DNA from: Paraburkholderia sabiae
GTDB taxonomy: Bacteria > Pseudomonadota > Gammaproteobacteria > Burkholderiales > Burkholderiaceae
Direction: 5' to 3'
Assembly: GCF_030412785.1 (NCBI RefSeq)
Contig: NZ_CP125296.1
Span: 930,001 to 994,000, forward strand
DNA: 64,000 nucleotides
Position 1 is the first letter of the stretch. Each line of letters starts with the position of its first letter. Below, one piece after another: positions 1 to 59,356 of the stretch. Below the pieces are notes generated by a model. The model worked only from the letters and a program-made list of their open reading frames with translations, ran no database searches and was not told the DNA's origin. The translations under genes were made by a program, and so were the position numbers.

Positions 1-1671
1 CCGCCCGGTGTGTTCGCGTGCGGCCGCGTCAACGGCGTGTACACGCTCGGCCACAAGTTGCAGGACGGCGAGCGCGCCGGCATGCAGGCCGCGGCGCACT
101 GCGGTCTGGGCCCGGACGGCGAGGTCAGCGCGATGCAGACGCGCATCGAGGAACGCGAATCGCCGTCGCATCCGTGGCCGATCGTCGGCCATACGTCGGG
201 CAAGAATTTCGTCGATTTCGACGAAGACCTGCAACTGAAGGATTTCGAAAACGCCGTGCAGGAAGGCTTCGACAACATCGAACTGCTGAAGCGTTTTTCG
301 ACCAACGGCATGGGCCCGAGCCAGGGCAAGCATTCGAACATGAACGGCTTGCGCATCCTCGCGCGGCTGACGGGCAAGGAGCCGCAGCAGGTCGGCACGA
401 CGACGGCGCGGCCGTTCTTCCATCCCGTGCCGATGTCGCATCTCGCCGGACGTGGCTTCAACCCGGAACGGCGCACGCCGCTGCATGCACAGCACCAGTT
501 GCTGAACGCAGTGTGGATGCCGGCGGGCGTCTGGCAGCGTCCCGAGTATTACGCGATCGCGGGCAAGGCGCGCGCGACGTGCATCGAAGAAGAAGCGCTC
601 GCCGTGCGCAACGGCGTGGGCATCATCGACGTGGGCACGCTCGGCAAGATCGAAGTGCGCGGACCGCAGGCCGCCGAGTTTCTCGAGCGCGTGTACGTGT
701 CGAAGTACGCGGGCCTGAAGGCGGGCATGACGCGCTACGCGGTGATGTGCGACGAGTCCGGTGTCGTGATCGACGACGGCGTGATCGCGCGTCTCGCCGA
801 CGATCACTTCTACTTCACGACCACGACGTCGGGCGCGGCCGCCATCTATCGCGAGCTGTCCCGCCTCAACACGATCTGGCAGCTCGACTGCGGCATCGTC
901 AACGTGACAGGCGCATTCGCCGCCGTGAATCTGGCGGGACCGGCGTCGCGCGCGGTGCTCAGCAAGCTCGTCGATCTCGATCTGTCGTCTACAGCCTTTC
1001 CGTATCTCGGCGTGCGCGTGACGGGCGTCGCGCTCGGGCAGAACCGCGTGCCCGCGCGTCTGATGCGAGTGGGTTTCGTCGGCGAATGGGGTTACGAAAT
1101 CCATATTCCCGCCGAGTACGGCGCGGCGCTCTGGCGCGCGCTGCTCGAAACGGGCAAGGAGTACGGCGTGCGGCCGTTCGGCGTCGAAGCGCAGCGTCTG
1201 CTGCGGCTGGAGAAAGGTCACGTGATCGTGAGCCAGGACACCGACGGTCTGACGACGCCGCGCGACGCCGGCATGGCCTGGGCCGTGAAGATGGACAAGC
1301 CGTTCTTCGTCGGCAAGCGCAGTTTGCAGATCATCGACAAGGCGCCGGCCAAACAGTGTCTCGTCGGCTTCGCGCTCGATGCAGGTGTACGCGACAGCAC
1401 TCTGCGCGAGTGTCATCTCGTGATCGAAGGTGGCGAGATCGCGGGGCGCGTCACGAGCGTCGCGTGGAGCGCGACGCTGCAAAAGACCATCGGCCTCGCG
1501 TTCGTGCGTCCCGCGCAGGCCGAGCCCGGCTCCCGCATCACATTCCGTTCGGGCGGCGGCCGCATGGTGTCCGCGACCGTCGTCCCGACACCGTTCTACG
1601 ACCCTGAGAGCGAGCGTCAGAAAGACGCCGTAACGATACAAGCTGCTGCGCCGAGGAAGGAGACAGCATGA
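1..1671 (+). CDS. mgdC: N-methylglutamate dehydrogenase, alpha-type subunit (partial, 5' end outside window)
   Basis: This is the C-terminal part of a sarcosine-oxidase-alpha-like subunit; the reading frame is open from base 1, so the N-terminal FAD and Fe-S region lies upstream of the window. The segment starting VFACGRVNGV is the end of the dinucleotide-binding half. From about residue 150 onward it is a GcvT/aminomethyltransferase-type folate-binding domain. On sequence alone it could be sarcosine oxidase alpha, but linkage to a gamma subunit, gmaS and mgsABC marks it as N-methylglutamate dehydrogenase. That enzyme oxidises N-methylglutamate and passes the methyl carbon to H4F or releases formaldehyde. 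It overlaps mgdD by an ATGA junction, implying translational coupling. Confidence 0.88.
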   Translation, partial: PPGVFACGRVNGVYTLGHKLQDGERAGMQAAAHCGLGPDGEVSAMQTRIEERESPSHPWPIVGHTSGKNFVDFDEDLQLKDFENAVQEGFDNIELLKRFSTNGMGPSQGKHSNMNGLRILARLTGKEPQQVGTTTARPFFHPVPMSHLAGRGFNPERRTPLHAQHQLLNAVWMPAGVWQRPEYYAIAGKARATCIEEEALAVRNGVGIIDVGTLGKIEVRGPQAAEFLERVYVSKYAGLKAGMTRYAVMCDESGVVIDDGVIARLADDHFYFTTTTSGAAAIYRELSRLNTIWQLDCGIVNVTGAFAAVNLAGPASRAVLSKLVDLDLSSTAFPYLGVRVTGVALGQNRVPARLMRVGFVGEWGYEIHIPAEYGAALWRALLETGKEYGVRPFGVEAQRLLRLEKGHVIVSQDTDGLTTPRDAGMAWAVKMDKPFFVGKRSLQIIDKAPAKQCLVGFALDAGVRDSTLRECHLVIEGGEIAGRVTSVAWSATLQKTIGLAFVRPAQAEPGSRITFRSGGGRMVSATVVPTPFYDPESERQKDAVTIQAAAPRKETA

Positions 1672-2327
1672 ACGCGCCACTTCGAATGAGCCCGGTGTGC
1701 GATGCATGGAAAGCGCCCAGCCTGCGATCGGGCGTGCGCGAAGGCATGCGCGTCGAGGAGCAGGTCGATGCCGCCGACAGCATGCGCGCCGCGACGCTCG
1801 GCATCGCCGATGTGTCCTTCCTGTCTCGCACCGGCTTCAAGGGCAAGGGCGCGGCAGCGTGGCTGCAGGCGCAGGACATTCCCGTGCCGGAACTGCCGAA
1901 CAGCTGGGCGCCGCTTGCGGGCGGCGGCGCGGTGCTGCGGCTCGGCATTTCCGAGTACCTGATCGAAGACGGTCTTACGCAAGGCAGTTCGGCAACGGTG
2001 GCGCATCTCGATACGCCCGTGCATGTGTATCCCGTGCTGCATCAGGATGTCGCGCTCGTGTTGTGCGGCGACGCCGTGCAAGAGCTGCTGCTGCAAACCT
2101 GCAACGTCAATTTCGCCGCGCTGGATCTGGCGGCCCGGCCAGTCGTGCTGACTTCGATGGCGGGCGTCGCCGTCACCGTCATGCCGGGCATCCGGGCAGG
2201 CAGGCCTTACTACCGGATCTGGGCCGACGGCACCTATGGCCTGTATCTGTGGGAATGCCTTGCCGGCATCGCCCGGGAGCTGGGCGGCGGCCCTGTTGGA
2301 GTCGCCGCAATCACGGATATCGACTAG
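1668..2327 (+). CDS. mgdD: N-methylglutamate dehydrogenase, gamma-type subunit
   Basis: A 219-residue protein resembling the sarcosine oxidase gamma (SoxG) family, a small folate-fold structural subunit of the heterotetramer. It begins inside the stop codon of the alpha subunit (ATGA) and ends about 95 bases before gmaS. The order alpha-gamma-gmaS-mgsABC matches the N-methylglutamate clusters of other methylamine users, so the assignment rests on family plus context. Gamma subunits diverge quickly and carry no catalytic motif to check. Confidence 0.82.
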   Translation: MNAPLRMSPVCDAWKAPSLRSGVREGMRVEEQVDAADSMRAATLGIADVSFLSRTGFKGKGAAAWLQAQDIPVPELPNSWAPLAGGGAVLRLGISEYLIEDGLTQGSSATVAHLDTPVHVYPVLHQDVALVLCGDAVQELLLQTCNVNFAALDLAARPVVLTSMAGVAVTVMPGIRAGRPYYRIWADGTYGLYLWECLAGIARELGGGPVGVAAITDID

Positions 2328-2422
2328 CCGGCTATCCGGCAGTGAGCAAGCAGTCGACGCGGGCGCGATGACGGGCCGGCGTTTTTCGAAACCCTGGACT
2401 TATCACGTTTGAGGACATTCAC

Positions 2423-3751
2423 ATGACCCCCGAAGACGCCCGGAAGTTTCTCAAAGACAACGAGGTGAAGTACATCCTTGCGCAGTTCGTCGACATTCAC
2501 GGAGTCGCGAAGACGAAGTCCGTGCCCGCCGCGCACCTCGACAGCATCCTCACGGCAGGCGCCGGTTTCGCTGGCTTCGCCGTGTGGGGACTCGGTATCG
2601 ATCCGCAAGGGCCCGACTTCATGGCTGTCGGCGATATCAATACCCTGCAGCTGGTGCCCTGGCAGCCGGGCTATGCGCGCGTCGTCTGCGACGGGCATGT
2701 GAAGCGCGAGCCCTGGCCGTTCGAAAGCCGCGTGACGCTGAAGAAGCAGGTCAGCCGCCTCGAAGATCGCGGCTGGATTCTGAACACGGGTCTCGAGCCG
2801 GAATTCTCGCTGCTGCGCAAAGGCCCCGATGGCGCGATCGTGCCGTGCGATCACACCGACGCACTGCCCAAGCCGTGCTACGACTACAAGGGCCTGTCGC
2901 GTTCGCGCGTGTTCCTCGAAAAGCTGACGGATGCGCTGATCAAGGCGGGCATCGACGTCTATCAGATCGATCACGAAGACGCGAACGGCCAGTTCGAAAT
3001 CAACTACACGTACACCGATTGCCTGAAGTCCTGCGATCACTACGTGTTCTTCAAGATGGCGGCCGCGGAGATCGCGAACGAACTGGGACTCGTCTGCTCG
3101 TTCATGCCGAAGCCGTTCGCGAATCGCCCCGGCAACGGCATGCACATGCACATGTCGATTTCCGACGGCAAGAAGAACCTGTTCGCCGACGATCACGACG
3201 AGAACGGCCTCGGCCTGTCGAAGCTCGCGTATCACTGGACGGCGGGGATTCTCAAGCACGCGGCCGCGCTCACGGCGATCTGCGCGCCGACCGTCAATTC
3301 GTACAAGCGCCTCGTGGTCGGACGTTCGCTCACGGGCGCGACGTGGGCGCCCGCGTATGTCAGCTATGGCGACAACAACCGTTCGTCGATGGTGCGCATT
3401 CCCGGCGGGCGGATCGAACTGCGCCTGCCCGACGCGGCATGCAACGCGTACCTCGCGACAGCGGCGGTGATCGCGGCGGGTCTCGATGGTGTCGAGAACC
3501 GGCTGGAGCCCGGCAAGCCATGCAACGCCAATCTCTACGAGATGTCGCCCGAACAGCTCAAGGAAAACGGCATCAGCATCCTGCCGCAAAACCTCGAAGC
3601 CGCGTTGTGCGCGCTGGAACGCGACGAAGTGATGCTCGAAGCGCTCGGACCGGCAGGCGGCGAATTCCTGCGTCTGAAGCACATGGAGTGGATCGAGTAC
3701 ATGCGCCATGTGTCGGACTGGGAACAGAAGACCTACCTCGAATTTTTCTGA
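2423..3751 (+). CDS. gmaS: gamma-glutamylmethylamide synthetase (glutamine-synthetase family)
   Basis: A 442-residue glutamine-synthetase-fold enzyme predicted to ligate monomethylamine to glutamate using ATP, the entry step of the N-methylglutamate pathway. Visible family features are the N-terminal beta-grasp start ([11 protein letters not shown]), the catalytic stretch GNGMHMHMS near residue 235, and the C-terminal [10 protein letters not shown] and RIELRLPD blocks. Length and type fit GmaS rather than the longer housekeeping GlnA. Its position between mgd and mgs genes makes this the preferred reading. The start has an upstream GAGGA ribosome-binding site. Confidence 0.93.
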
Positions 3752-3800: not shown

Positions 3801-4709
3801 ATGTGTGGAATTGTCGGACTACTCGTCAAGAAGCCGGCGTTGCGTGAACGGCTCGGCGAATTGATGGTGCCCATGTTGCTGGGCATGACGGAGCGCGGCC
3901 CCGACTCGGCCGGACTTGCCGTGTTCACGGAGCCCGTCGCCGACGGCGTGCGCAAGATCAGCCTGTACTCGGGTCTGACGGAAGAGGGCGCCGACTTCAA
4001 CTGGCAGGGCCTCGTGCACGAACTGAACCAGCATCTCGGCGCGAAGGCGTCGGTGCAGGTCAAGGACAACCACGCCGTGCTGAGCGTGGCCATCGACGCC
4101 GAGACCGTCAAGCACTGGATTCGCGAAACACATCCGGGGCTGCACGTGCTGTCGACGGGCCGCATGATCGACCTCTACAAGGACACGGGCACGCCCGGCC
4201 AGGTCGCCGACCGCTACGCGTTCAGCGGACTGACGGGCACGCATCTGGTCGGCCACACGCGGATGGCGACGGAGTCCGCCGTGACGCCCGACCGTGCGCA
4301 CCCGTTCACGGCAGGCGAAGACTTCTGCCTCGTGCACAACGGCTCGCTGTCGAATCCGAACGGCGTGCGGCGCATGCTGGAACCGCACGGCATCCGCTTC
4401 GATACCGACAACGACACGGAAGCCGCATGCCGCTTCCTCGAATACCGGCTGCGCGAAGGCGACGATCTCGAAGTCGCGCTGCAAAAGGGCTTCGAGCAGC
4501 TCGACGGCTTCTACACGTTCCTGATGGGCACGCCCGACAAGCTCGCGCTGATCCGCGATCCGTTCGCCTGCAAGCCGGCCGTGGTGGCCGAGACGGACGA
4601 TCTCGTCGCGATCGCTTCCGAGTTCCGCTCGCTCGCGCATCTGCCCGACATCAAGCACGCGCGCGTTTTCGAACCGGCACCTGAGGAGATGTACGTATGG
4701 ACAGTGTGA
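3801..4709 (+). CDS. mgsA: N-methylglutamate synthase subunit A (class II glutamine amidotransferase-like)
   Basis: A 302-residue protein starting MCGIVGLL, so Cys2 becomes the N-terminal nucleophile of a class II glutaminase domain after Met removal. In the N-methylglutamate pathway this subunit is thought to release methylamine from gamma-glutamylmethylamide for transfer to 2-oxoglutarate. The NGSLSNP segment near residue 180 is typical of the Ntn-amidotransferase fold. It is preceded by a strong GAGGAGAT ribosome-binding site and overlaps mgsB by 13 bases. Confidence 0.92.
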   Translation: MCGIVGLLVKKPALRERLGELMVPMLLGMTERGPDSAGLAVFTEPVADGVRKISLYSGLTEEGADFNWQGLVHELNQHLGAKASVQVKDNHAVLSVAIDAETVKHWIRETHPGLHVLSTGRMIDLYKDTGTPGQVADRYAFSGLTGTHLVGHTRMATESAVTPDRAHPFTAGEDFCLVHNGSLSNPNGVRRMLEPHGIRFDTDNDTEAACRFLEYRLREGDDLEVALQKGFEQLDGFYTFLMGTPDKLALIRDPFACKPAVVAETDDLVAIASEFRSLAHLPDIKHARVFEPAPEEMYVWTV

Positions 4710-5395
4710 ACTTCGACCTGACGTCCGCCTCGGTGACGGACGTGAACGGCTTCCTGCACCGCGAGGCCGCGAAAGCGGGCACGCGCCGCGTGCTGATCTC
4801 GAATCCCGATGGCGCGCACAACATCGCGGTGGGGATCGATCTTCCCATCGACGTCGAGATCGACGGCCACGCGGGCTACTACGCGGCCGGCATGAACAAG
4901 GAAGCGAAGGTGACGATCTCGGGCAGCGCCAGCACGGGCGTGGCCGAGAACATGATGAGCGGACGCGTGCACGTAAAAGGCTTCGCGTCCAACGCGGCGG
5001 GCGCGTCGGCGCATGGCGGGCTGCTCGTCATCGAAGGCGATGCGGGTCTGCGTTGCGGCATCTCGCTCAAAGGCGCGGACATCGTGGTGAAGGGATCGGT
5101 CGGCAGCTTCTCGGCGTTCATGGCGCAGGCGGGGCGGATCGTGATCTGCGGCGATGCCGGCGATGCGCTCGGCGATTCGCTGTACGAAGCGGTGATCTAT
5201 GTGCGCGGCAAGGTCAAGTCGCTCGGCGCCGACGCGCGCGAAGAGCCGATGCAGCCCGCCGACGTGGAAGCCGTTGCGCAGTTGCTGCGCGCGGCGGGGC
5301 CGGCCTTCGCGGAGATCGATCCCAAGGAATTCAGACGCATTGCATCGGCCCGCTCGCTGTATCACTGGAATGCCGACGCGAATCAGGAATATTGA
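4697..5395 (+). CDS. mgsB: N-methylglutamate synthase subunit B (GXGXG domain protein)
   Basis: A 232-residue protein homologous to the C-terminal beta-helix (GXGXG) domain of glutamate synthase. Repeated glycine-rich turns run through residues 60-160 (for example GHAGYYAAGMN and VEGDAG-type turns). In the Mgs complex this domain is probably structural, linking the amidotransferase and synthase modules. It starts inside mgsA, so the two are translationally coupled. The same fold appears in FhcC at 20180-21004, a distant relationship rather than a recent duplication. Confidence 0.9.
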   Translation: MDSVNFDLTSASVTDVNGFLHREAAKAGTRRVLISNPDGAHNIAVGIDLPIDVEIDGHAGYYAAGMNKEAKVTISGSASTGVAENMMSGRVHVKGFASNAAGASAHGGLLVIEGDAGLRCGISLKGADIVVKGSVGSFSAFMAQAGRIVICGDAGDALGDSLYEAVIYVRGKVKSLGADAREEPMQPADVEAVAQLLRAAGPAFAEIDPKEFRRIASARSLYHWNADANQEY

Positions 5396-5409
5396 ACCGG
5401 GGAGCCGTC

Positions 5410-6777
5410 ATGGAAATCAAGCCCGTACACATGAAACACATCGCCACTGAAGAGTCCTGGGGCTTCGACCGCAAGACCATCGACTACATCCAGAACGCCG
5501 CGGCCCACGGACTGTACGAGATCCGCGGCCTCGGCGCGAAGCGGCGCGTGCCGCATTTCGACGACCTGCTGTTTCTCGGCGCGTCGCTGTCACGTTATCC
5601 GCTCGAAGGCTACCGCGAGAAATGCGTGACGAAGACCGTGCTCGGCACGCGCTTCGCGAAGAAGCCGATCGAACTTGCCATTCCCATCACCGTCGCGGGC
5701 ATGAGCTTCGGCGCGCTGTCGGCGAACGTGAAGGAGTCGCTCGGCCGCGCGGCCACGGAACTCGGCACGTCGACCACGACGGGCGACGGCGGCATGACGC
5801 CGGAAGAGCGACGCTCGTCGAAGACGCTCGTGTATCAATGCCTGCCGTCGCGCTACGGCTTCAATCCCGATGACGTGCGCAAGGCCGACGCGATCGAAGT
5901 CGTGATCGGGCAGGGCGCGAAACCGGGCGGCGGCGGCATGCTGCTCGGCCAGAAGATTTCGCCGCGCGTCGCGAAGATGCGCACGCTGCCGGAAGGTATC
6001 GACCAGCGTTCAGCGTCGCGCCATCCCGACTGGACGGGCCCCGACGATCTGCAGATCAAGATTCTCGAACTGCGCGAGATAACCGACTGGCAGACGCCGA
6101 TCTACGTGAAGGTCGGCGCGACGCGCACGTTCAACGACGTCAAGCTCGCGGTGCATGCGGGCGCGGACGTGATCGTGGTCGACGGCATGCAGGGCGGCAC
6201 GGCGGCGACGCAGACCTGTTTCATCGAGAACGTCGGCATTCCGACGCTCGCCGCGCTGCGCCAGGCCGTCGACGCGCTCGAAGACCTGAACATGAAAGGC
6301 CAGGTGCAGCTGATCATTTCGGGCGGCATCCGCAGCGGCGCCGACGTCGCGAAGGCGCTGGCAATGGGTGCCGATGCCGTGGCGATCGGCCAGGGCGTGC
6401 TGGTGTCGCTGGGCTGCAATAGCGGCTCGTATATCGACAACGGCCAGCATGTGCCCGCGCTCGACGACTACGCGCGCCTCGGCACTGCGCCGGGCTTCTG
6501 CCATCACTGCCACACGGGCAAGTGCCCCGTCGGCATCACGACGCAGGACGCGGTGCTGCAGGAGCGCCTGAAGCCCGATGTCGGCGCGCAGCGTCTGAAG
6601 AACTATCTGAAGACGGTGAACATGGAGCTGACGACGATTGCGCGTGCATGCGGCAAGCAGAACGTCCATCATCTGGAGCCGGAAGACCTCGTTGCGCTGA
6701 CCGTCGAAGCGGCCGCGATGGCGCGCGTGCCGCTTGCCGGGACCAACTGGATTCCTGGCTTGAACGGCGCACGATGA
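5410..6777 (+). CDS. mgsC: N-methylglutamate synthase subunit C (glutamate synthase large-subunit-like)
   Basis: A 455-residue FMN-dependent TIM-barrel protein like the synthase domain of GltB. It carries the phosphate-binding and substrate segments GMSFGALS, GDGGMTPEER and GGIRSGADVAKALAMGADAV. A cysteine cluster, FCHHCHTGKCPVG near residue 365, is the expected [3Fe-4S] site. It should perform the reductive transfer of methylamine to 2-oxoglutarate, giving N-methylglutamate. The ATG at 5410 is chosen over upstream in-frame codons because it lies just after mgsB and begins the family-typical MEIKPVH. Its stop overlaps the folD start. Confidence 0.93.
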   Translation: MEIKPVHMKHIATEESWGFDRKTIDYIQNAAAHGLYEIRGLGAKRRVPHFDDLLFLGASLSRYPLEGYREKCVTKTVLGTRFAKKPIELAIPITVAGMSFGALSANVKESLGRAATELGTSTTTGDGGMTPEERRSSKTLVYQCLPSRYGFNPDDVRKADAIEVVIGQGAKPGGGGMLLGQKISPRVAKMRTLPEGIDQRSASRHPDWTGPDDLQIKILELREITDWQTPIYVKVGATRTFNDVKLAVHAGADVIVVDGMQGGTAATQTCFIENVGIPTLAALRQAVDALEDLNMKGQVQLIISGGIRSGADVAKALAMGADAVAIGQGVLVSLGCNSGSYIDNGQHVPALDDYARLGTAPGFCHHCHTGKCPVGITTQDAVLQERLKPDVGAQRLKNYLKTVNMELTTIARACGKQNVHHLEPEDLVALTVEAAAMARVPLAGTNWIPGLNGAR

Positions 6778-7673
6778 CCGCGCAACTGATCGATGGCCGG
6801 CATCTCGCGCGGCGTCTGCGCGCGCGCTTTCGCGAGCGCGTCGCAGCACTGTCCGCGCGCGGTGTCGTGCCGGGTCTCGCCGTGGTGCTGGTCGGCGACA
6901 ATCCCGCGTCCGAACTGTACGTCGCGAACAAGGTGAAAGCCTGTGCGGAGAGCGGCGTGCGCTCGTTCATGCACCGCTTTCATGCGGACTGCCGCGAGAC
7001 GGAACTCCTCGACCGCATCGCCGCGCTCAACGTCGAGCGCGGCACGCACGGCATTCTGGTGCAATTGCCGTTGCCGCCGCAGATCAATGCGCGGCGCGTG
7101 CTGGAGAGCATCGTCGTCGACAAGGACGTGGATGGTTTTCATCTGTACAACGTCGGCGCGCTGGTGGTCGGCAATTCGATCTTTCCGCCTTGCACGCCAT
7201 ACGGAGTTCAGTTGCTGCTGGAAACTACGGGCATCGACGTGGCGGGCAAGAACGTCGTGGTGGTCGGCGCGAGCAATATCGTCGGCAAGCCGATGGCGCT
7301 GATGCTGTTGCAGCGGGAAGCGACCGTCACGGTGTGTCACGTGAAGACACGCGACCTCGCGCAGCACACGATCCATGCCGACATCCTCGTCGTCGCCGCA
7401 GGCAAGCCGGGGCTCATCAAGGCGGAGATGGTCAAGGAAGGCGCGATCGTGATCGACGTCGGCATCAATCGCATGGCGGATGGGCGGATCGTCGGCGATG
7501 TCGATTTCGAGCCCGTGCGCGAGCGGGCGTCGTGGATCACGCCGGTGCCGGGCGGCGTCGGACCGATGACGGTCACGATGCTGATCGAGAACACACTGCG
7601 TTCCGCCGAGCGTTTCGCAAACGGCGAAGCGTTTCATCCGCCGCAGCCTTTCTGGCAGGTGCCGGCAGGCTAG
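6774..7673 (+). CDS. folD: bifunctional methylene-H4F dehydrogenase / methenyl-H4F cyclohydrolase
   Basis: A 299-residue FolD. The N-terminal catalytic domain carries ASELYVANKVKAC with the catalytic lysine and the GILVQLPLP block near residue 95. The Rossmann part has GASNIVGKP near residue 165 and ends PGGVGPMTVTML. It interconverts methylene-, methenyl- and formyl-H4F. Coupling to mgsC through an ATGA overlap suggests a dedicated copy that handles methylene-H4F from N-methylglutamate oxidation. No mtdA or fch gene is present in the serine-cycle operon, so FolD may replace them. Confidence 0.93.
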   Translation: MTAQLIDGRHLARRLRARFRERVAALSARGVVPGLAVVLVGDNPASELYVANKVKACAESGVRSFMHRFHADCRETELLDRIAALNVERGTHGILVQLPLPPQINARRVLESIVVDKDVDGFHLYNVGALVVGNSIFPPCTPYGVQLLLETTGIDVAGKNVVVVGASNIVGKPMALMLLQREATVTVCHVKTRDLAQHTIHADILVVAAGKPGLIKAEMVKEGAIVIDVGINRMADGRIVGDVDFEPVRERASWITPVPGGVGPMTVTMLIENTLRSAERFANGEAFHPPQPFWQVPAG

Positions 7674-7700: not shown

Positions 7701-9152
7701 ATGGCTGACGATACACGCAACGCACTCGAAACAGCCGCGCAACTCGCGCTCGCTTTCCATGACGCGCGCGGGTCGCGTCCGACCGGTCCCGTGGCGAGCT
7801 TCGCGGAATTACGCGCGGCCTTCGGCGGCCCGACGCCGGAACAGGGCGAACCCGCCGACGCCGTCATCGCGCGGCTCGCGGCCATCGCGCAGCCTGGGCT
7901 GCTTGGCACGGCGGGGCCGCGCTTCTTCGGCTGGGTCGCGGGCGGCTCGCATCCCGCGGGCGTCGCGGCGGACTGGCTCACGAGCGTCTGGGGGCAGAAT
8001 GCCGCGACCTACGACGGCGCGCCCGCTGCCGCTGTCGCCGAACAGGTGGTGGCGCAATGGCTGCTCGATCTGCTCGATTTGCCGCGCGAATGCTCGGTCG
8101 GTTTCACGACGGGCGCGACCATGAGCAACTTCGTGTGTCTTGCGGCCGCCCGCGATGCCGTATTGCGACGTGCGGGCTGGGACGTCGAAGCCGACGGCCT
8201 GTGCGGGGCGCCGCGTATTTCCGTCTGTCTCGGCGAAGGTGCGCATGTGAGTGTGCGCGCCGCGCTGCGCTATCTGGGCATCGGCGAGCGGTCCGTGATC
8301 GAGATCGCCGCCGACGAAGCAGGGCGCATGCAACCCTCCGCGTTGCGCGAGGCGCTCGCGCAGCACGAAGGACCGCTGATCGTCATCGCGCAGGCGGGCC
8401 ACATGATGACGGGCGCGTTCGACCCCGTGGGCGAGATCGCCGCGTGTGCGCATGAGCATGGCGCATGGGTTCACGTCGATGCCGCGTTCGGCCTGTGGGC
8501 GAGAGCGTGTCCCGAGCGCATGCATCTCGCGGCGGGCATCGAGCACGCCGACTCGTGGGCAACCGACGCTCACAAATGGCTGCAAGCGCCGTACGAAACG
8601 GGCTGCGCATTCGTGCGCGACGCCGACGCGCACCGTCGCGCGATGTCGATCCACGCGAGCTATCTGCCGCAAGCGGACGATGGCGTGCGCGATCCCGCGC
8701 ACTACACGCCGGAGCTTTCCCGGCGCGCTCGCGGTTTTGCGCTGTGGACGCTGCTGCGCACGTTCGGACGCGAGGGGATCGCGGCGATGATCGCGCGTCA
8801 TTGCGAGCTGGCGTGCCGCATCGCACGTCGGCTTGCGCGCGGGCCGGGCGTCGCGCTGCTCAACGAAGTCGAACTGAACCAGGTGCTCGTGCGATTCGGC
8901 TCGGCCTACGACGGCACGCTCGCCGACGAACTGACGTTGCGCACGGTCGAGCGCATCCGGGCGCAGGGCGTGTGCGATGTGCGCGAGGCAAGCTGGCAGG
9001 GACGCAAGGTGATGCGTCTGTCGGTGATTTCATGGGCGACGACCGAGCATGACGCCGATTGCGCAGCCGATGCGATCCTGTCGGTATGGGATCAGGTTCA
9101 TGGCGAGTATCTGTGTCAGGAACGCGAGGCGATGGCGCTGGCGTTTGGTTGA
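7701..9152 (+). CDS. PLP-dependent decarboxylase (group II fold), substrate unknown
   Basis: A 483-residue fold-type I PLP enzyme of the aromatic-amino-acid/glutamate decarboxylase group. The HVDAAFGLW segment carries the aspartate that contacts the pyridine nitrogen. The Schiff-base lysine is in TDAHKWLQ near residue 295. It lies 27 bases after folD and is the last gene before a bidirectional terminator, so it probably belongs to the methylamine operon. No residue identifies the substrate. Tyrosine decarboxylation for the furan cofactor is conceivable but unsupported; a general amino-acid decarboxylase is equally possible. Confidence 0.7.
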   Translation: MADDTRNALETAAQLALAFHDARGSRPTGPVASFAELRAAFGGPTPEQGEPADAVIARLAAIAQPGLLGTAGPRFFGWVAGGSHPAGVAADWLTSVWGQNAATYDGAPAAAVAEQVVAQWLLDLLDLPRECSVGFTTGATMSNFVCLAAARDAVLRRAGWDVEADGLCGAPRISVCLGEGAHVSVRAALRYLGIGERSVIEIAADEAGRMQPSALREALAQHEGPLIVIAQAGHMMTGAFDPVGEIAACAHEHGAWVHVDAAFGLWARACPERMHLAAGIEHADSWATDAHKWLQAPYETGCAFVRDADAHRRAMSIHASYLPQADDGVRDPAHYTPELSRRARGFALWTLLRTFGREGIAAMIARHCELACRIARRLARGPGVALLNEVELNQVLVRFGSAYDGTLADELTLRTVERIRAQGVCDVREASWQGRKVMRLSVISWATTEHDADCAADAILSVWDQVHGEYLCQEREAMALAFG

Positions 9153-9256: not shown

Positions 9257-10234
9257 CTACCTGCTATTCCCGATCGCATCCGCCGTCGCGAGCAGCGCCT
9301 CGGCCATGCGGATGCTCGCGGCGTCGATCAGCCTGCCATCCAGCGACACGGCGCCTTTGCCTTCCTTCGCGGCCTGCGCCATCGCGTCCATGATGCGGCG
9401 CGCCTTGGTGACTTCGGCGTCGGCGGGCGTGAACACGCGATTGGCGTGCTCGATCTGCGACGGATGAATCGCCCACTTGCCCTCATAGCCCAGCACGGCG
9501 GCACGGCGCGCGGCGGCATCGTAGCCATCGGGATCGCTGAAATCGCCGAACGGGCCGTCGATGGGACGCAGTCCATACGCGCGGCACGCCACCATCATCC
9601 GCGTTTGCGCGGCGTGCCACTGGTCGCCCCAGAAGTAGTCGCGCTCGCCGCGTTCGTTCTTGTCGGTGAGCACGCCGTAGTCGCGATTCACGCCGCCGAT
9701 CACCGTCGTGCGCGCGCGCGTCGACGCCGCATAGTCCGCGACGCCGAACGACATCGCCTCCAGCCGGCGGCTCGATTGCGCGATGCCCTCGACGTTCGCC
9801 ATGCCGAGCGCGGTTTCGATCAGCACTTCGAAGCCGATCTTTTTCGTGCGGCGGCGCGCGGCCTCGATCTGCGTGACGAGCATGTCGACGGCATAGACGT
9901 CGGCGGCCACGCCGACCTTCGGAATCAGGATCATGTCGAGACGGGGGCACGCTTCGACGATATCCACGACGTCGCGATACATGTAATGCGTATCGAGCCC
10001 GTTGATGCGGACCATCATCGTCTTGTTTCCCCAGTCGATCTCGTTGAGCCCGACGACGATGTTCTTGCGCGCCTGCTCCTTGTCGTCCGGCGCGACGGCG
10101 TCTTCGCAATCGAGAAAGATGATGTCGGCCGCCGAGCGCGCGGCCTTCTCGAACATCGCGGTATTCGAGCCGGGGACGGCCAGCTCGGATCGATGCAGCC
10201 GCGCTTTGGCCGGCTCGATGACAGTGAAGCTCAT
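9257..10234 (-). CDS. mcl: malyl-CoA lyase (CitE/HpcH family)
   Basis: A 325-residue CitE-like TIM barrel. It shows IIFLDCEDAVAPDDKEQ (Mg and CoA site) near residue 40, the VRINGLDT strand, ILIPKVG and the GFEVLIET glutamate. As the last gene of the mtkA-mtkB-ppc cluster it should split malyl-CoA into acetyl-CoA and glyoxylate, the final serine-cycle step. The malyl-CoA assignment over citramalyl-CoA or beta-methylmalyl-CoA lyase rests on length and on malate thiokinase in the same operon. It has a good AGGAGA ribosome-binding site. Confidence 0.9.
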   Translation of the reverse strand: MSFTVIEPAKARLHRSELAVPGSNTAMFEKAARSAADIIFLDCEDAVAPDDKEQARKNIVVGLNEIDWGNKTMMVRINGLDTHYMYRDVVDIVEACPRLDMILIPKVGVAADVYAVDMLVTQIEAARRRTKKIGFEVLIETALGMANVEGIAQSSRRLEAMSFGVADYAASTRARTTVIGGVNRDYGVLTDKNERGERDYFWGDQWHAAQTRMMVACRAYGLRPIDGPFGDFSDPDGYDAAARRAAVLGYEGKWAIHPSQIEHANRVFTPADAEVTKARRIMDAMAQAAKEGKGAVSLDGRLIDAASIRMAEALLATADAIGNSR

Positions 10235-10279
10235 AGACGTTCTCCTGTAGGCAATCGTTGAGGGTGTCGGCGCGGGCGC

Positions 10280-14075: not shown

Positions 14076-14086
14076 GTCCGTTCTCC

Positions 14087-44216: not shown

Positions 44217-44329
44217 GAGGTTAACCAGAGCGAGCGCAGCGCGCACCGCGTGCGCAGCAGAACGCCGCCGCGTGGATGGCGCGGCGTCGAAGAGGAACGC
44301 GGGGAAAGCGGCACAGGCGCGCCGCGATG

Positions 44330-46146: not shown

Positions 46147-46946
46147 TACGCTTCTCCCCGAAGTTCCTTGATGATGCCCGCGAGGCGGGCGGCCTGTTCG
46201 GCGGGCGTGCCGTCGATCATCTGCGCGCGGCCGAGTTCGGGCACATACACGCGCCGGATACGCGACAGCGAGCCGCGTGCTCCCGTTTGCTCGGCAGGCA
46301 GGCCGAGTGCGTCCGGCGTCACGGCTTCGATGGGCCGCGACGCGGCCTGCTTGATGCCGCGCAGCGACGCGTAGCGCGGCGTGTTGATGCCCAGTTGCAG
46401 CGTGAGCACGGCGGGGCATTGCACGGTGACGTTCGCATAGGCGCCGCCTTCCAGTTCGCGGCGCGCGCTCGCCGTGCCCGCGCCGGGCGCGTATTCGAGA
46501 CCCGCGACGACGGCCGCGTGCGGCCAGTCGAGCAGACCCGCGAGCGCCATCCCCGTTGCGCCGTACGCGTGGTCGGACGCCTGCACGCCGGCGAAGATCA
46601 TGTCGGGCGCTTCGCGGCGTGCAAGCGCGGCGAGCGCGCGCGCGACGCCGACGGGGTCGGCGTCTTCCAGTTCGTCGCTCCAGATGCGGATCGCGCGGTC
46701 GGCGCCTTTGGCGAGGCACTTGCGCAGTTCTTCGTCGGCGTGCTCCGGGCCGACGGTGACGACGACGACTTCGATGCCGTCGCCATTGGCGCCTTCCTTG
46801 AGCCGCAGCGCTTCTTCGAGCGCGTAGTGATCCCATTCGTTGAGGTCGAAGACATGAAAGTCCGCTTCGACATCGCGATCGTCATCACGCAGCTCGAAAT
46901 CTTCGTCGAGCGACGTGACCTGCTTGATGGTGACGAGTATCTTCAT
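46146..46946 (-). CDS. etfB: electron transfer flavoprotein, beta subunit
   Basis: A 266-residue EtfB starting MKILVTIKQVTSLDEDFE, with LNEWDHYALEEALRLKE and the segment PDMIFAGVQASDHAYGATG, typical of the AMP-binding beta subunit. It partners EtfA. It is translationally coupled on both sides: ATGA overlap with the repeat-protein gene upstream and TAATG with etfA downstream. That suggests the repeat protein is made in step with the ETF. Confidence 0.94.
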   Translation of the reverse strand: MKILVTIKQVTSLDEDFELRDDDRDVEADFHVFDLNEWDHYALEEALRLKEGANGDGIEVVVVTVGPEHADEELRKCLAKGADRAIRIWSDELEDADPVGVARALAALARREAPDMIFAGVQASDHAYGATGMALAGLLDWPHAAVVAGLEYAPGAGTASARRELEGGAYANVTVQCPAVLTLQLGINTPRYASLRGIKQAASRPIEAVTPDALGLPAEQTGARGSLSRIRRVYVPELGRAQMIDGTPAEQAARLAGIIKELRGEA

Positions 46947-50821: not shown

Positions 50822-53038
<2,217 letters not shown>

Positions 53039-53202: not shown

Positions 53203-54315
53203 TCAGGCGGCGACGCGGGTGCGCAGGCGCATCGGGTCGTAGAACGGCGTCTTGCTGACGACGCCGCTGAACTTGCCGGCCGCGTCGCGAATCTCGACCT
53301 TGGTGCCGAGCGCCGTGTGATACGGCTTCAGGTGCACCATCGCGAGCGATTGCATCAGATAGCGGCTGAAAATCGAACTCGTCACGACGCCGACCTGCTC
53401 GTCGCCGATATAGATCGGCGAACCGGCGCTCACAGCCGCGTCGTGCTTGACCACCACGCCTGCCTGCTTCACGCGTTCCTTGCCGCGCGCCGCGAGCAAG
53501 GCCTGCTTGCCGACGTAGTCGCCTGCCTTGTCGACGTCGACCATCCAGTCGAGATTCAGCTCCCACGGCGTGGTGTCGCCTTCGGGCATGTCGAACGGAT
53601 AGAACAGCAGCGCGGCTTCGATGCGTGCGATTTCCAGCGACATCCACGACGCAGGCACGGCGCCGTGCGGCTTGCCCGCTTCGAGAATGCCGTCCCACAG
53701 CGCGACGGCGTCGGCGGCGGCGCACGACACTTCGAAGCCCTGTTCACCCGAATAGCCGCCGCGCGACACGATGATCTTGCGGCCGAACAGTTGCGTCTCG
53801 ACGTGCGCGAAGTAGGGCAGCTTGTTCAGTTCGATGCCGATGTGCGGCTGGAGAATGTCGGTCGAACGCGGACCTTGCAGCGACAGCATGTGAACGTCGA
53901 AGTCCTGGCGCCATTCGACGTTGCGCTTGTGCGCGGCGCGTTCGAGCAGCGTCTGCGTGGTGCCGCCGCCATGCGAAAGCCTGAAATGCTGCGGAGCGTC
54001 GTAGATCACCATCAGGTCGTCGCAGACGCCGCCGCGCTCGTCGACTTCGGCGGCGAGCCGCGCGGTGCCCGGCTTCATGCGGCTCACGTCGACGGCGCAG
54101 ATGCTGTCGATCACGGCGGCCGCATCGGGGCCCGACACGCGCACGATGTTGAGCGCGCTGATGTCGTAGAGGCCCGCTGCCGTGCGCACGGCCACCACGT
54201 CGTCATACGGATCGCCCGAGTAGTACCAGGGAATCGGCATGTCGTTCCAGGAGTCGCCATCGAGCTTCGAACCGAGCTCGCGATGACGGGCGTTGAGAAT
54301 GGATTGCCTTGTCAT
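53203..54315 (-). CDS. GcvT-like folate-dependent protein of the tmd/dmm cluster
   Basis: A 370-residue aminomethyltransferase-family protein: AGLYDISALNIVRVSGPDAAAVID near residue 50, FDVHMLSLQGPRS near residue 140, SRGGYSGEQGFEVSC near residue 200, and the C-terminal GVVTSSIFSRYLMQSLAMVHL. The fold binds H4F and captures methylene units from N-demethylation. A GcvT-type protein is part of the four-gene dimethylamine monooxygenase (dmmDABC/HODM) set, so this may be that subunit. It is, however, transcribed with tmd and could serve Tmd. The start at 54315 gives the usual family N-terminus. Confidence 0.82.
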   Translation of the reverse strand: MTRQSILNARHRELGSKLDGDSWNDMPIPWYYSGDPYDDVVAVRTAAGLYDISALNIVRVSGPDAAAVIDSICAVDVSRMKPGTARLAAEVDERGGVCDDLMVIYDAPQHFRLSHGGGTTQTLLERAAHKRNVEWRQDFDVHMLSLQGPRSTDILQPHIGIELNKLPYFAHVETQLFGRKIIVSRGGYSGEQGFEVSCAAADAVALWDGILEAGKPHGAVPASWMSLEIARIEAALLFYPFDMPEGDTTPWELNLDWMVDVDKAGDYVGKQALLAARGKERVKQAGVVVKHDAAVSAGSPIYIGDEQVGVVTSSIFSRYLMQSLAMVHLKPYHTALGTKVEIRDAAGKFSGVVSKTPFYDPMRLRTRVAA

Positions 54316-54816: not shown

Positions 54817-55773
54817 ATGAATGCTTCGAGAACGATCCCCGTGCGAGTCGCACGCGTCGAACCGGTGACGCAGGATGTGCGACGCTTTACGCTCGAATGC
54901 GCGAATGGAGGACGGCTTCCCGCGTATTCGGCGGGCAGCCATGTCGTCGTGACGATGCGCGGCAAGGAGCGCGTCTGGCGCAACGCCTATTCGCTCACGA
55001 CGCCCGCCGGTGCGCGCGACGCGTATCAGATCATGGTGCGGCGCGTGCCCCAGTCGCGCGGCGGTTCGGCCTTCATGCACAGCGAAGTGCGCGAAGGCAG
55101 CGAACTCGACATTTCGATGCCGTCGAACTTCTTCCCGATCGCGCGACGCGGCGCGAAGCACGTGATGATCGCGGGCGGCATCGGCCTCACGCCGTTCCTG
55201 TCGATGCTGCCCGAGCTGGCGCAGACGGGCGCGCGCGTCGAGATGCATCTGTGCTGCCGTCCTGAAGACGAGGCGTCGTTCGGCGAACTGGTCGCCAATC
55301 GTACGACGGGCGGTATCGCCATCTACACCGACCTGTGCGACGCGAACGAGCGCTTCGGCGCGATGCTCGCCGCGCAGCCGGCGGGCACGCATCTCTATAC
55401 CTGCGGACCGGAAGGCCTGATGAGCGGCGTCGCGAGCACGGCCCGCGCGCTGGGCTGGCCCGCGAGTCATTTCCATCAGGAGAGCTTCGGCGGCGGCTCG
55501 CACGGCGCGCCCTTTACGGCCGTGCTCGCGCAAAGCGGGCGCGAGGTCAAGGTGCGCAGCGACGAAAGCCTGCTCGAAGCGCTGGAGCGCGAAGGCGTGG
55601 ACGCCCCGTACATGTGCCGCGGCGGCGCATGCGGCACCTGCGCGCTCGACGTGCTCGAAGGCGAGCCCGATCATCGCGACTTCTGTCTCGGCGAGGCCGA
55701 GCGGGCCACGGGTTGTCAGATGCTGCCCTGTGTGTCGCGTGCGCGGGGCGAACGCCTCGTGCTGAACATCTAA
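54817..55773 (+). CDS. reductase component of dimethylamine monooxygenase (FMN/2Fe-2S, PDR/VanB family)
   Basis: A 318-residue phthalate-dioxygenase-reductase-type protein. The flavin-binding barrel carries WRNAYSLTTPAG near residue 55, the nicotinamide domain has MIAGGIGLTPFLSML near residue 115, and the C-terminal plant-type ferredoxin has CRGGACGTC plus a distal Cys (LPCVS). It should pass NAD(P)H electrons to the heme subunit encoded 15 bases downstream. It opens the plus-strand dmm operon, facing away from the GcvT-like gene. Confidence 0.88.
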   Translation: MNASRTIPVRVARVEPVTQDVRRFTLECANGGRLPAYSAGSHVVVTMRGKERVWRNAYSLTTPAGARDAYQIMVRRVPQSRGGSAFMHSEVREGSELDISMPSNFFPIARRGAKHVMIAGGIGLTPFLSMLPELAQTGARVEMHLCCRPEDEASFGELVANRTTGGIAIYTDLCDANERFGAMLAAQPAGTHLYTCGPEGLMSGVASTARALGWPASHFHQESFGGGSHGAPFTAVLAQSGREVKVRSDESLLEALEREGVDAPYMCRGGACGTCALDVLEGEPDHRDFCLGEAERATGCQMLPCVSRARGERLVLNI

Positions 55774-57047: not shown

Positions 57048-58727
57048 ATGAGTGCGGTTTCCGAAGACTACGTTGCCGAGGCAGCGGACGGTACCTTGCA
57101 TCGAAAGATCAGCTGGACGGGTGCATTCTGGGTGGCGAGCGGCGTGCCCGCGCTCGTGCTCTTTTCGATCGGCTCGATCGCGGCGACGGTCGGCAAGCTG
57201 TCGTGGGCGGTGTGGATCGTCTCGATCGGTCTGGGCTTCATCCAGTCGTTCTCGTATGCCGAGATCGCCGGTCTCTTTCCTCACAAGTCGGGTGGGGCGT
57301 CGGTGTACGGCGCGATCGCGTGGGTTCGCTATTCGAAGCTGTTCGCGCCCCTGTCGGTCTGGTGCAACTGGTTCGCGTGGTCGCCCGTGCTGGCGATCGG
57401 ATCGGGGCTCGCGGCGGGCTACATTCTCTCCGTGCTGTTCCCCGCCGACGCCGCGATCAACACATGGCAGGTCACGCTGGTGAGTCTCGACTGGATCCGT
57501 TCGGGCCTGAGCCTGCGGATCAATTCGACCTTCATACTCGGCGCGGTCGTGTTGCTGATCACGTTCGCGATCCAGCACCGCGGCATTCTGAATGCGGCGC
57601 GCATCCAGACGATACTCGGCGTGGCCGCACTGGTGCCGCTGATTCTCGTCGGCACGGTGCCGCTCTTCAGTGGTGATCTGCCGCTGCACAATCTGTTTCC
57701 GCTCGTGCCGTTCGCGAAGGACAGCGCCGGACAGATCGTCGACGGCACCTGGGATCGCGCAGGCATCACGCTGATGGCGGGCGGGCTGTTCATTGCGGCG
57801 TGGTCCACGTACGGTTTCGAAACGGCCGTCTGCTACACGCGTGAATTCCGCGATCCGAAGGTCGATACGTTCAAGGCGATTCTGTATTCCGGGCTTCTGT
57901 GCATCTTCGTGTTCACGATCGTGCCGCTGGCGTTCCAGGGCGTGCTGGGTCTCGGCCACATGGTCACGCCCGCCGTCAAGGATGCTGCGGGCAATATCGT
58001 CACGCCCGCCGTGTACGACGGCATGCTGTCGCCCGATATCTACAGCGGCATGGGCGTCGCGAAAGCGATGGCGCCGATGATCCACGGCGGCCTGCTGGTC
58101 GAGCGCGTGCTGATCGTGATGCTGGTGCTGGCGCTCGTGCTGGCCATCATGACGTCGATGGCGGGTTCGTCGCGCACGCTGTATCAGGCGTCCGTCGACG
58201 GCTGGCTGCCGAAGTACCTGTCGCACGTCAACGAACACGGCGCGCCGACCCGCGCGATGTGGACGGACCTGTGCTTCAACCTGGTCCTGCTGTTGATGTC
58301 CGACTATGTGTTCGTGCTGGCGATGTCGAATGTCGGCTACATCATCTTCAACTTCCTGAACCTGAATTCAGCGTGGATTCACCGCATGGACCGCCCGGAC
58401 TGGAGCCGGCCGTTCCGCGCGCCGAACTGGCTGCTCGCGCTCGGTACGCTGTTCTCGTTCGTCAATCTGGCGCTGCTCGGCATGGGTGCGGATATCTGGG
58501 GTTCCGGCACGCTGATCTCGGGCCTGTGCTTCGCGGCGCTGATCCTGCCCGTGTTCCTGTTCCGCCACTACGTGACCGACAAGGGGCATTTCCCCGATGC
58601 GATGAAGGAAGACATGCAGCTCGTCGGCTCGCAACGCGTCGCGCGGCGCGCAGGCATCCTGCCTTACGTGACGGTCGCGGCGGGCATCATGGTGGTTGCG
58701 GTCACGCATAGTCTCGCCATCTACTGA
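57048..58727 (+). CDS. APC-superfamily permease, probable methylated-amine transporter
   Basis: A 559-residue polytopic membrane protein with about 12 hydrophobic segments. The N-terminal core starts GAFWVASGVPALVLFSIGSIAA and is followed by a loop SYAEIAGLFPHKSGGASVYG, typical of amino acid/polyamine/organocation transporters. It lies inside the dmm gene run, between the heme subunit and DmmA, so it probably imports dimethylamine or another methylated amine. Substrate is inferred from context. An AAAAAGGA site precedes the start. Confidence 0.83.
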   Translation: MSAVSEDYVAEAADGTLHRKISWTGAFWVASGVPALVLFSIGSIAATVGKLSWAVWIVSIGLGFIQSFSYAEIAGLFPHKSGGASVYGAIAWVRYSKLFAPLSVWCNWFAWSPVLAIGSGLAAGYILSVLFPADAAINTWQVTLVSLDWIRSGLSLRINSTFILGAVVLLITFAIQHRGILNAARIQTILGVAALVPLILVGTVPLFSGDLPLHNLFPLVPFAKDSAGQIVDGTWDRAGITLMAGGLFIAAWSTYGFETAVCYTREFRDPKVDTFKAILYSGLLCIFVFTIVPLAFQGVLGLGHMVTPAVKDAAGNIVTPAVYDGMLSPDIYSGMGVAKAMAPMIHGGLLVERVLIVMLVLALVLAIMTSMAGSSRTLYQASVDGWLPKYLSHVNEHGAPTRAMWTDLCFNLVLLLMSDYVFVLAMSNVGYIIFNFLNLNSAWIHRMDRPDWSRPFRAPNWLLALGTLFSFVNLALLGMGADIWGSGTLISGLCFAALILPVFLFRHYVTDKGHFPDAMKEDMQLVGSQRVARRAGILPYVTVAAGIMVVAVTHSLAIY

Positions 58728-58747
58728 ACCTCGGAACCTCGCATCGA

Positions 58748-59356
58748 ATGGATGAAACTACCATGATGTCGACCAACAAGAGCCGGCCCGAGTACGTGCG
58801 GCTGGCTCCCGATCTGCACGGCACGCGCCACTGGTTCATCACGAACGGCGCGAGCGCCGAGGATTGCGTCCGCGCGAGCCTCGCGCTCGCCGGGCTCGCG
58901 CCGATGGAAGTGTGGGAGGTGCAGGATCCAAAGCGGCACGGCGCGGGTGTCACGTTCCACGAGGCGAGAGAACGCACCTTCGCCGACGACGCCTCACTGT
59001 TTGCCGCGCTCGACGAGGCGTTGCGCGATCCCGCCGTGGCGACCGTCGGCCTGCGTCTCTACGTGCTCGGCAGCGAGCCGTTCATCTGGTCGGTCCGGCG
59101 CATCGCGGATCATTACGCGCTCGCGTCGGAAGCCGTCCAGGTGCAGCACAGCGGCACGCTGCAGCGCCGCGTCTACTGCATTCACTGTCACGCGTTCAAT
59201 GATGCCGTGACACGGAACGTCGTGACGTGCAACGGTTGCGGACTGCAACTCCTCGTGCGCGATCATTTTTCACGGCGCCTCGCGGCGTTCATGGGCGTGC
59301 AGGCGGATGCCGAAGTAGCCGGCGAACTGCCTGCCATCTCACAGCCCTATCTGTAG
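58748..59356 (+). CDS. dmmA: dimethylamine monooxygenase subunit DmmA-like
   Basis: A 202-residue protein with an alpha/beta N-terminal half and a C-terminal cysteine cluster of two CxxC pairs (YCIHCHAF and TCNGCGLQL, about residues 140-165). The cluster looks like a small metal-binding ribbon or rubredoxin-like site that could relay electrons within the monooxygenase. It matches the DmmA family in size and end pattern. It is separated from the other subunits by the permease. The start could also be the Met at residue 6 or 7. Confidence 0.82.
   Translation: MDETTMMSTNKSRPEYVRLAPDLHGTRHWFITNGASAEDCVRASLALAGLAPMEVWEVQDPKRHGAGVTFHEARERTFADDASLFAALDEALRDPAVATVGLRLYVLGSEPFIWSVRRIADHYALASEAVQVQHSGTLQRRVYCIHCHAFNDAVTRNVVTCNGCGLQLLVRDHFSRRLAAFMGVQADAEVAGELPAISQPYL

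Follow-up and report, generated by a model that had tools for sequence, protein, structure and literature searches.

The stretch of Paraburkholderia sabiae DNA analysed here, 64,000 nucleotides long and hereafter called the window, lies inside a larger conserved block that we read as a discrete island for growth on tri-, di- and monomethylamine, in which methylene-tetrahydrofolate (methylene-H4F) feeds assimilation directly and which, whole or in parts, has moved between replicons and lineages. We put the probability of this reading at roughly 0.7. The window is C2:930001-994000 of a 9.9-Mb genome in four contigs, C2 being 2.31 Mb long. Positions below are window positions unless a contig is named, with negative numbers lying to its left; G codes denote genomes of the genus (G000 is P. 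sabiae) and L codes denote loci. Open reading frames (ORFs) were called over 184 kb around the window, which refined the starts of mgsABC, folD and the serine-cycle genes, and compared with ten other carriers of the block. Most window genes were assigned with NCBIfam and Pfam, and tmd and the HODM alpha subunit with PDB sequence searches. Several family matches fall below the curated cut-off (e.g., those to MfnD, MfnE, MptN and BhcA), so the genes concerned carry names ending in "-like", and absences hold at the sensitivity of the searches used.

The conserved block is 78.7 kb long, runs from about -7050 to 71631 with sharp bounds, and contains 67 ORFs as called; on C2 the island occupies 923-1002 kb. 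The sequence-only reading, made earlier from the letters of the window, had placed the island at 1 to 59356, which is too small. Gene content and order are constant from about -7050 to 71631 in G011, G134, G047 and G106, G070 keeps the same order to 68036 (short of the last five genes), and the block edges of G008 and G078 are rearranged. On the right, the nucleotide match stops at 71631 in five of the ten other blocks (G011, G047, G134, G106 and G072) and at 71614 in G143. A terminator-like hairpin with an A-run marks where the left end begins; on the right, the block stops upstream of a gene that is read toward its interior. To the left of the window, the block continues with purU, mgdA, mgdB, most of mgdC and two regulators; to the right, with two amino-acid-permease-family transporters and a GcvT-like protein.

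For trimethylamine, the block encodes trimethylamine dehydrogenase (TMADH) in tmd (50822-53014, minus strand), which aligns with residues 2-728 of the solved TMADH 1djn at E=0. The covalent-flavin Cys30 is present in that alignment (Cys where 1djq has Ala), as are matching stretches around what we take to be the 4Fe-4S cysteine and aromatic substrate-bowl residues. In its best segment the protein is 83% identical to one from Methylophilus methylotrophus (L049), and the full-length alignment to 1djn rules out a mere DgcA/OYE relative. Nearby are etfA and etfB for electron-transfer flavoprotein (ETF; 45196-46946, minus strand, family match) and a gene for an Fe-S/CCG-domain protein (48521-50683, minus strand), proposed as the ETF:quinone oxidoreductase for TMADH. 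We kept 80 of 135 Tmd relatives, and 54 of their loci had full flanks: ETF genes are present in all 54 and a relative of the Fe-S protein (at least 45%) in 53, a companionship with tmd which suggests that this protein may be the standard ETF:quinone link of TMADH. HODM is present in 31 of the same 54 loci, gma/mgs in eight, and HODM together with mgs in six.

For dimethylamine, the parts of HODM/Dmm lie close together: a flavin/2Fe-2S reductase (54817-55773, plus strand, family match), the haem-PAS alpha subunit (PF11927; 55789-56859, plus strand; E 1.5e-150 to 5lte), dmmA (58763-59356, plus strand, DmmA domains) and a GcvT-like folate protein (53203-54315, minus strand; Pfam GCV_T and GCV_T_C), which we propose as the HODM delta subunit, a subunit whose role is presumably folate-dependent. 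A TMAO-permease-family transporter (TMAO, trimethylamine N-oxide) precedes dmmA, the two spanning 57048-59356 on the plus strand, and scores 862.9 bits against NF053774 (cut-off 690).

For monomethylamine, the N-methylglutamate pathway set of gmaS, mgsABC and mgdABCD is present. N-methylglutamate dehydrogenase genes occupy 1-2327 (plus strand) with the C-terminal part of mgdC (1-1671 of an ORF of 988 amino acids that starts at -1295; SoxA-like with a GcvT domain, i.e., Pfam GCV_T, GCV_T_C and SO_alpha_A3, with a partial, sub-cut-off NCBIfam soxA-type match) and mgdD (1668-2327). The latter has no family match and is named by position, and mgdA and mgdB are named by position and size. gmaS (2423-3751, plus strand), for gamma-glutamylmethylamide synthetase, belongs to the type III glutamine synthetase family, scoring 625.2 bits with TIGR03105 (cut-off 469.6), and takes its name from context. 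mgsA, mgsB and mgsC (3801-6777, plus strand), for N-methylglutamate synthase, match amidotransferase, FwdC/GltS-like and glutamate synthase-like families below cut-off and are named from their order.

Assimilation is represented by a serine-cycle operon (9257-18992, minus strand, family matches) with glyA, sgaA (a BhcA-like aminotransferase), hprA, mtkA, mtkB, ppc and a malyl-CoA lyase-like gene of the CitE family, so all seven genes glyA, sga, hpr, ppc, mtkAB and mcl are present. Genes for gck, formate dehydrogenase and methanol dehydrogenase were absent from the window genes scanned, with gck and formate dehydrogenase not searched genome-wide. folD (6774-7673, plus strand), for methylene-H4F dehydrogenase/cyclohydrolase, reaches 435.5 bits against NF010786 (cut-off 421). 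Formaldehyde oxidation via tetrahydromethanopterin (H4MPT) and methylofuran is represented by fhcB, fhcA, fhcD and fhcC (fhcCDAB, the formyltransferase/hydrolase complex; 20180-24979, minus strand), methylofuran synthesis genes of MfnD-like, MfnF-like and MfnE-like type (25226-27911, plus strand) and of MfnB-like type with a DUF447 protein (27893-29250, minus strand), all by family matches, and an H4MPT set (29253-37932, minus strand) of DUF6513/DHPS-like, DmrB/AfpA-like flavoprotein, CitG-like and MptN-like ligase genes, mch, an ATP-grasp protein gene, mtdB and the beta-RFAP synthase gene, within which a folB-like gene lies at 31457-31870 on the plus strand. A pyridoxal phosphate-dependent decarboxylase (7701-9152, plus strand; Pyridoxal_deC, weak MfnA match) is proposed as the tyrosine decarboxylase for methylofuran, the MfnA role; among the other blocks retrieved, it occurs in all nine that have the H4MPT set and is missing from all three that lack it (12/12 concordant).

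NCBIfam, Pfam and PDB sequence matches thus confirm every module named by the sequence-only reading, i.e., tmd, the dmm set, gmaS-mgs-mgd, the H4MPT/methylofuran genes and the serine-cycle operon. Its description of the pathway as near-complete holds for these modules but not for two connecting steps. Fae is absent from the block, the three P. sabiae copies all lying outside it, so the H4MPT oxidation set (fae, mtdB, mch, fhcABCD) is not in one unit, with fae outside and the rest present. Formate-H4F ligase (FtfL, PF01268), which in a complete serine-cycle methylotrophy would feed the cycle from formate, was found in none of 28 genomes, carriers and non-carriers, with matches in 4 of 14 control genomes.

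The carbon flow that we infer from these genes is as follows. TMADH would demethylate trimethylamine and free formaldehyde, its electrons going to ETF and to the Fe-S protein encoded nearby; dimethylamine would be demethylated by HODM; and GmaS-Mgs-Mgd would demethylate monomethylamine and free ammonium. The folate domains of the GcvT-like protein and MgdC would hand over methylene-H4F, which GlyA would feed directly into the serine cycle, and FolD and PurU would oxidise any excess. Free formaldehyde would be converted to formate by the H4MPT route, with Fae supplied from a second one-carbon (C1) cluster. Since the genome yielded no match to formate-H4F ligase, the usual route for formate to re-enter would be closed, so carbon from dimethylamine and monomethylamine would be assimilated directly and the formaldehyde from trimethylamine burned through H4MPT. 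A narrower version of this proposal, which we hold tentatively and at somewhat below even odds, is a substrate-locked methylotrophy: a serine cycle without FtfL, fed by methylene-H4F from the demethylases, an island H4MPT set serving solely TMADH formaldehyde, and a block that changes replicon and locus with no mobility genes recognisable in the parts scanned.

Naturally reduced blocks bear on this flow. In a gene matrix of 12 other blocks, all 17 listed H4MPT/methylofuran genes are present in each of the nine blocks that hold both tmd and the serine genes. The G143 and G072 blocks have no tmd, HODM alpha, fhc, mch or mtdB and keep all gma/mgs/mgd genes and seven of seven serine genes; G072 also has left-overs, namely two of four methylofuran genes (mfnE-like and mfnB-like) and a dmmA relative. 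These two blocks agree with a direct methylene-H4F feed and with H4MPT serving the formaldehyde from trimethylamine.

The distribution of the block is patchy. Among 144 genus genomes, TMADH of at least 92% is present in 16, with relatives of 41-44% in four more. HODM alpha of at least 78% is found in the same 16 (any match at E 1e-60, 31), GmaS of at least 85% in 18 (any match at E 1e-140, 62), and island-type MtkA in 17, each also with island-type gmaS. FhcD occurs in 73 genomes and is of island type (at least 523 bits) in 15, on the same contig as tmd in 14 of them and on another contig in the fragmented G062. The spacing between gmaS and HODM is 51-61 kb in 14 of 16 genomes and 15.5 kb in G077, and in G062 the two are on different contigs.

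These counts also bear on one alternative, i.e., that the genes serve nitrogen scavenging and formaldehyde detoxification instead of growth on carbon, with the serine genes working in glycine/C2 metabolism. Individual C1 genes are indeed common outside the island: 44 of the 62 genomes with gmaS relatives do not have the island type, the same is true of 15 of the 31 with HODM alpha relatives and 58 of the 73 with FhcD, and Fae is present in all six genomes without island genes among the 25 tested. However, 11 of the 12 other blocks keep a complete serine-cycle set in operon-like arrangement, from glyA to mcl and including mtkAB, and island-type mtkA is confined to genomes with island-type gmaS. 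We consider this alternative unlikely.

The surroundings of the block differ between carriers. We compared the flanks of 15 carriers over 5-53 kb per side (four bases on one side of G072), and adjoining flanks were common only to G047/G134 (both sides), G023/G034 (both sides, 1.4 and 2.6 kb), G008/G086 (one side, 3.3 kb) and G077/G078 (one side, 0.9 kb). The nine clade-A genomes thus show seven contexts: P. sabiae, G070, G011, G047 with G134, G106, G023 with G034, and G072. Matches that do not adjoin the block occur farther out (2.9 kb between P. sabiae and G070, 2.0 kb between G011 and G070, and some shorter or weaker), and flank homology beyond the distances compared is possible. A block fixed at one locus across the genus, which the sequence-only reading had named as evidence against recent transfer, is thus not what is seen.

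The P. sabiae locus can be followed in relatives. Its left flank corresponds to G011 C5:594-602 kb, with the 1.1 kb next to the island at G011 C5:994-995 kb, and is backbone in G011, G047, G053, G021 and G134. No match to its right flank turned up within the roughly 12-13 kb retrieved past those backbone matches, and together these results indicate that the locus is rearranged on both sides; an exact empty site was not obtained in relatives. In the other direction, the flanks of the G011 island match P. sabiae C2:554-580 kb, over about 5 kb on one side and a single 375-base match on the other, at a place some 340 kb from the P. sabiae island. For the G008 island, only one side of a candidate empty site in G007 matches.

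Tree conflicts add to this picture. The species tree came from rpoBC in 40 genomes, and its topology is rejected for eight island genes (approximately unbiased [AU] test, p 1.1e-37). The same holds for a set of 12 gma/serine genes compared across 13 genomes (p 1.0e-88). On the B side of the island tree, support is mixed, with one G077 node at 60% for proteins and 99% for nucleotides. The sequence-only reading had raised recent transfer, and for this strain that does not hold: G011 and G070 carry the block with its gene order unchanged, the long segments being 90-94% identical in nucleotides, and P. sabiae and G011 group together in both the island and rpoBC trees.

An old cluster inherited vertically, ancestral in these Paraburkholderia, lost in most of them and with its flanks scrambled by rearrangement of secondary replicons, would also give a patchy distribution with differing flanks. 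Six clade-A pairs among the 15 lowest island/rpoBC distance ratios have values of 0.99-1.23, the close pairs G047/G134 and G023/G034 keep a common locus, the left-overs in G072 mean that loss does happen, and the P. sabiae and G011 islands are seemingly on related replicons, since flank sequence of either island finds its match on the contig that carries the other. However, the G077 amine module groups with the sacchari clade: an island tree with G077 beside G008 and G086 is rejected (AU p 8.8e-9), as is the reverse constraint of the island placement on rpoBC (p 5.3e-52). The gma/serine module of G143 groups with clade A, and grouping it with its species relatives is rejected (p 5.6e-80); whether it is nested within clade A is weakly decided (AU p 0.02, Shimodaira-Hasegawa p 0.42, against clade A without G143). 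The block also lies on a 1.44-Mb contig in G106 and on 3.27- and 3.00-Mb contigs in G047 and G134. At least two module transfers, those of G077 and G143, are supported, and we regard purely vertical inheritance as improbable.

In composition, the block is set apart from its surroundings. Its guanine-plus-cytosine (GC) content is 65.0%, against 61.8% and 62.2% in the flanks, and median GC at third codon positions is 0.823 for the 67 block ORFs against 0.782 for 93 ORFs (p 1.6e-7). The second C1 cluster has a GC content of 64.2%, so function and expression may contribute to the excess. Patchy presence (16 of 144 genomes), differing surroundings, the compositional difference and the tree conflicts together support horizontal movement of the island. 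The sequence-only suggestion of a transferable island is upheld to that extent, but not as regards self-mobility. Integrases or relaxases, att repeats and a tRNA target were absent from the parts scanned, with no whole-genome integrase search made, and a self-mobile element has no support in the genes, flanks and tRNA scans covered. An element that encodes its own transfer, of the integrative and conjugative or the transposon-like kind, would fit the sharp, repeatable ends, the differing surroundings and the GC above them, but is very unlikely, with no mobility family among the window and block genes scanned (which left out a few ORFs and gave no family for several small ones) or in 14 flanking ORFs, no tRNA in the loci scanned, and ends (the hairpin on the left, the inward-reading gene on the right) that are possibly functional limits instead of attachment sites.

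Several points weigh against the reading of a mobile island with direct methylene-H4F feed. No integrase or transposase was found among ten of the 83 listed flanking ORFs and four flanking ORFs of P. sabiae (one in each group without a family), and no tRNA in the 40 loci scanned, a result that points to no vehicle of movement; secondary replicons may have been shuffled around a static block, and the species tree represents one locus, rpoBC. On the metabolic side, direct delivery of methylene-H4F by HODM and Mgd is predicted, and the transporter passes the TMAO permease cut-off, so TMAO could also be a substrate. The lack of FtfL is common to carriers and non-carriers, so it characterises the genomes sampled and says nothing specific about the island. 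The reduced blocks are not free of H4MPT, since G143 and G072 carry another FhcD elsewhere; they also keep folB, and G143 may represent an earlier state of the block, not the outcome of a loss. G077 has the amine genes only, with the serine linkage broken and an FhcD elsewhere in the genome. The single Fae match of G008 is of a weaker type and outside its island, which our scheme leaves unexplained. Finally, the islands of G078 and G133 are without RuBisCO and yet these genomes have one FhcD match each, which means that a second H4MPT cluster does not make up for the lost RuBisCO in every case.

The sequence-only reading took such compact linkage to be unusual, which overstates the case. Compact islands of methylamine and serine-cycle genes have been described in Paracoccus sp. 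N5 and Roseobacters (PMC4543880), and a 49.3-kb serine-cycle/H4MPT cluster in Methylobacterium extorquens (PMC2680597). Outside Paraburkholderia and Caballeronia, five of our Tmd loci (L034, L055, L062, L066 and L075) hold both HODM and mgs, with tmd, HODM and mgs within about 22 kb. None of five genes tested from fhc, mch, mtkA and glyA was found at 55% identity in the DNA around any of the 80 Tmd loci.

According to the excerpted text of PMC4543880, those islands resemble the Paraburkholderia block in compactly joining serine-cycle genes to genes that oxidise tri-, di- and monomethylamine and methylene-H4F, and in being on a plasmid or at a chromosomal site, with transfer proposed by those authors. 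They differ in using Tmm/Tdm, via TMAO, where the block uses TMADH. In P. sabiae the GcvT-like proteins resemble Tdm only in the C-terminal part, far below cut-off, and Tmm was not searched by name. The block also adds the H4MPT/methylofuran set, no mention of which appears in the excerpts for those islands, and Calvin remnants. P. aminophilus, the strain which that paper studied, encodes FtfL, whereas FtfL was not found in the 28 genomes here. The M. extorquens cluster, in the portion of PMC2680597 available, likewise places most serine-cycle enzymes beside H4MPT reactions and biosynthesis; it differs in holding pyrroloquinoline quinone (PQQ) genes and XoxF, in full synteny between the two strains compared, and in having mau as a separate island. 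No publication on the island in Paraburkholderia was recognised in open-licence PubMed Central literature, judged mostly from listings. We read the block as a variant of the kind of methylotrophy island published for Paracoccus and Roseobacters.

Two plasmids typed as mobilizable carry related gene orders. Azoarcus sp. KH32C pAZKH (NC_020548) holds TMADH, the Fe-S protein, a leucine-rich-repeat-variant (LRV) homologue, ETF, a GcvT-like gene and fhc within 49 kb; it differs in having a RuBisCO operon and fae, and in lacking HODM, gma and serine genes there. The plasmid NZ_CP038636 of Cupriavidus oxalaticus X32 (by tblastn, the stretch being unannotated) holds the same trimethylamine/dimethylamine genes and then the H4MPT set in island-like order; it differs in showing no match to gma/mgd, serine genes or RuBisCO in the 49 kb examined.

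These comparisons suggest that the methylotrophy island was assembled stepwise, its building blocks being an N-methylglutamate/serine module and a trimethylamine/H4MPT/Calvin cluster. The direction of evolution that we infer would begin with a cluster such as those on the Azoarcus and Cupriavidus plasmids (the Cupriavidus example being without RuBisCO in the stretch seen) joining an N-methylglutamate/serine-cycle module, after which the block or parts of it would have moved between replicons and Paraburkholderia lineages, with RuBisCO and Fae shed in a lineage that had a second H4MPT cluster.

That second C1 cluster lies at C2:660-700 kb in P. sabiae (L159 and L160), about 220-230 kb from the island. 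It holds the RuBisCO large subunit, CbbX, fbp, prk, Fae and PqqB/C/E-like genes (PQQ by Pfam domains), together with relatives of all 18 island fhc/methylofuran/H4MPT genes, and is possibly a methanol/autotrophy cluster. The nine clade-A genomes have two FhcD genes, with RuBisCO beside the second checked in P. sabiae alone. Fae was present in 25 of 25 genomes tested, one P. sabiae copy being in this cluster at C2:692971. It is inside the block in G078, G133 and G086, and within the island span in G046. Within the window, fbp, prk and a HAD phosphatase gene form a cbb-type trio (39231-42075, plus strand) between the H4MPT set and regulators. Because RuBisCO and cbbX lie inside the islands of G008 and G086, and in G008 between a LysR gene and fbp, the trio is best read as the remnant of a Calvin operon.

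If this reading holds, Paraburkholderia of soil and plants would have a complete methylated-amine diet; the block is found, for example, on pBPHY01 of the legume symbiont P. phymatum. The naturally reduced forms would then offer a test of the dependence between C1 modules, and a serine cycle that needs no re-assimilation of formate would be of interest for engineering growth on C1 compounds.

The remaining window genes are mainly regulatory. A CbbR/QscR-like LysR regulator (19260-20183, plus strand; CbbR family best match, under cut-off), a second CbbR-like LysR regulator (38126-39097, minus strand, family match), and a sigma54-dependent regulator with a NarL-type response regulator (42093-44977, minus strand, family matches) are followed at 59522-64000 by a porin gene, a histidine kinase gene and a further gene (62542-64413) without family assignment, all inside the conserved block. 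The LRV protein is encoded at 46943-48499 (minus strand), between etfB and the Fe-S protein gene, and is a possible partner in TMADH electron transfer; the Azoarcus and Cupriavidus plasmids have a homologue in the corresponding position. It was found in 12 of the 80 Tmd loci at 45% identity; within those 80 it is limited to Paraburkholderia, Caballeronia and Cupriavidus, and it also occurs in the Azoarcus plasmid.

At the left edge of the block, L103:12953-13072 (minus strand; window about -7047 to -6928) is a candidate structured RNA ending in the terminator. Its core of about 60 bases is almost invariant in nine clade-A blocks, with one exchange kept as a main-stem pair. It occurs once per edge, and in two model searches of 92 sources only the four included edges scored well. 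No known RNA family reached the Rfam gathering score, the best weak match having E 0.21. In G023 (C56:35003) and G034 (C13:86857), an Fae gene of the second type is found about 2 kb beyond one of the island's ends. In P. phymatum, Bphy_6505 and Bphy_6506 (FhcA and FhcD, of either C1 cluster) are listed with values of 1.9 and 3.9 in a table of the transcriptome paper PMC5748707. Lastly, G134 has a 9.1-kb insertion of 57.9% GC (C2:2211344-2220452) between folB and the CitG-like gene, the same place where G078 has Fae.

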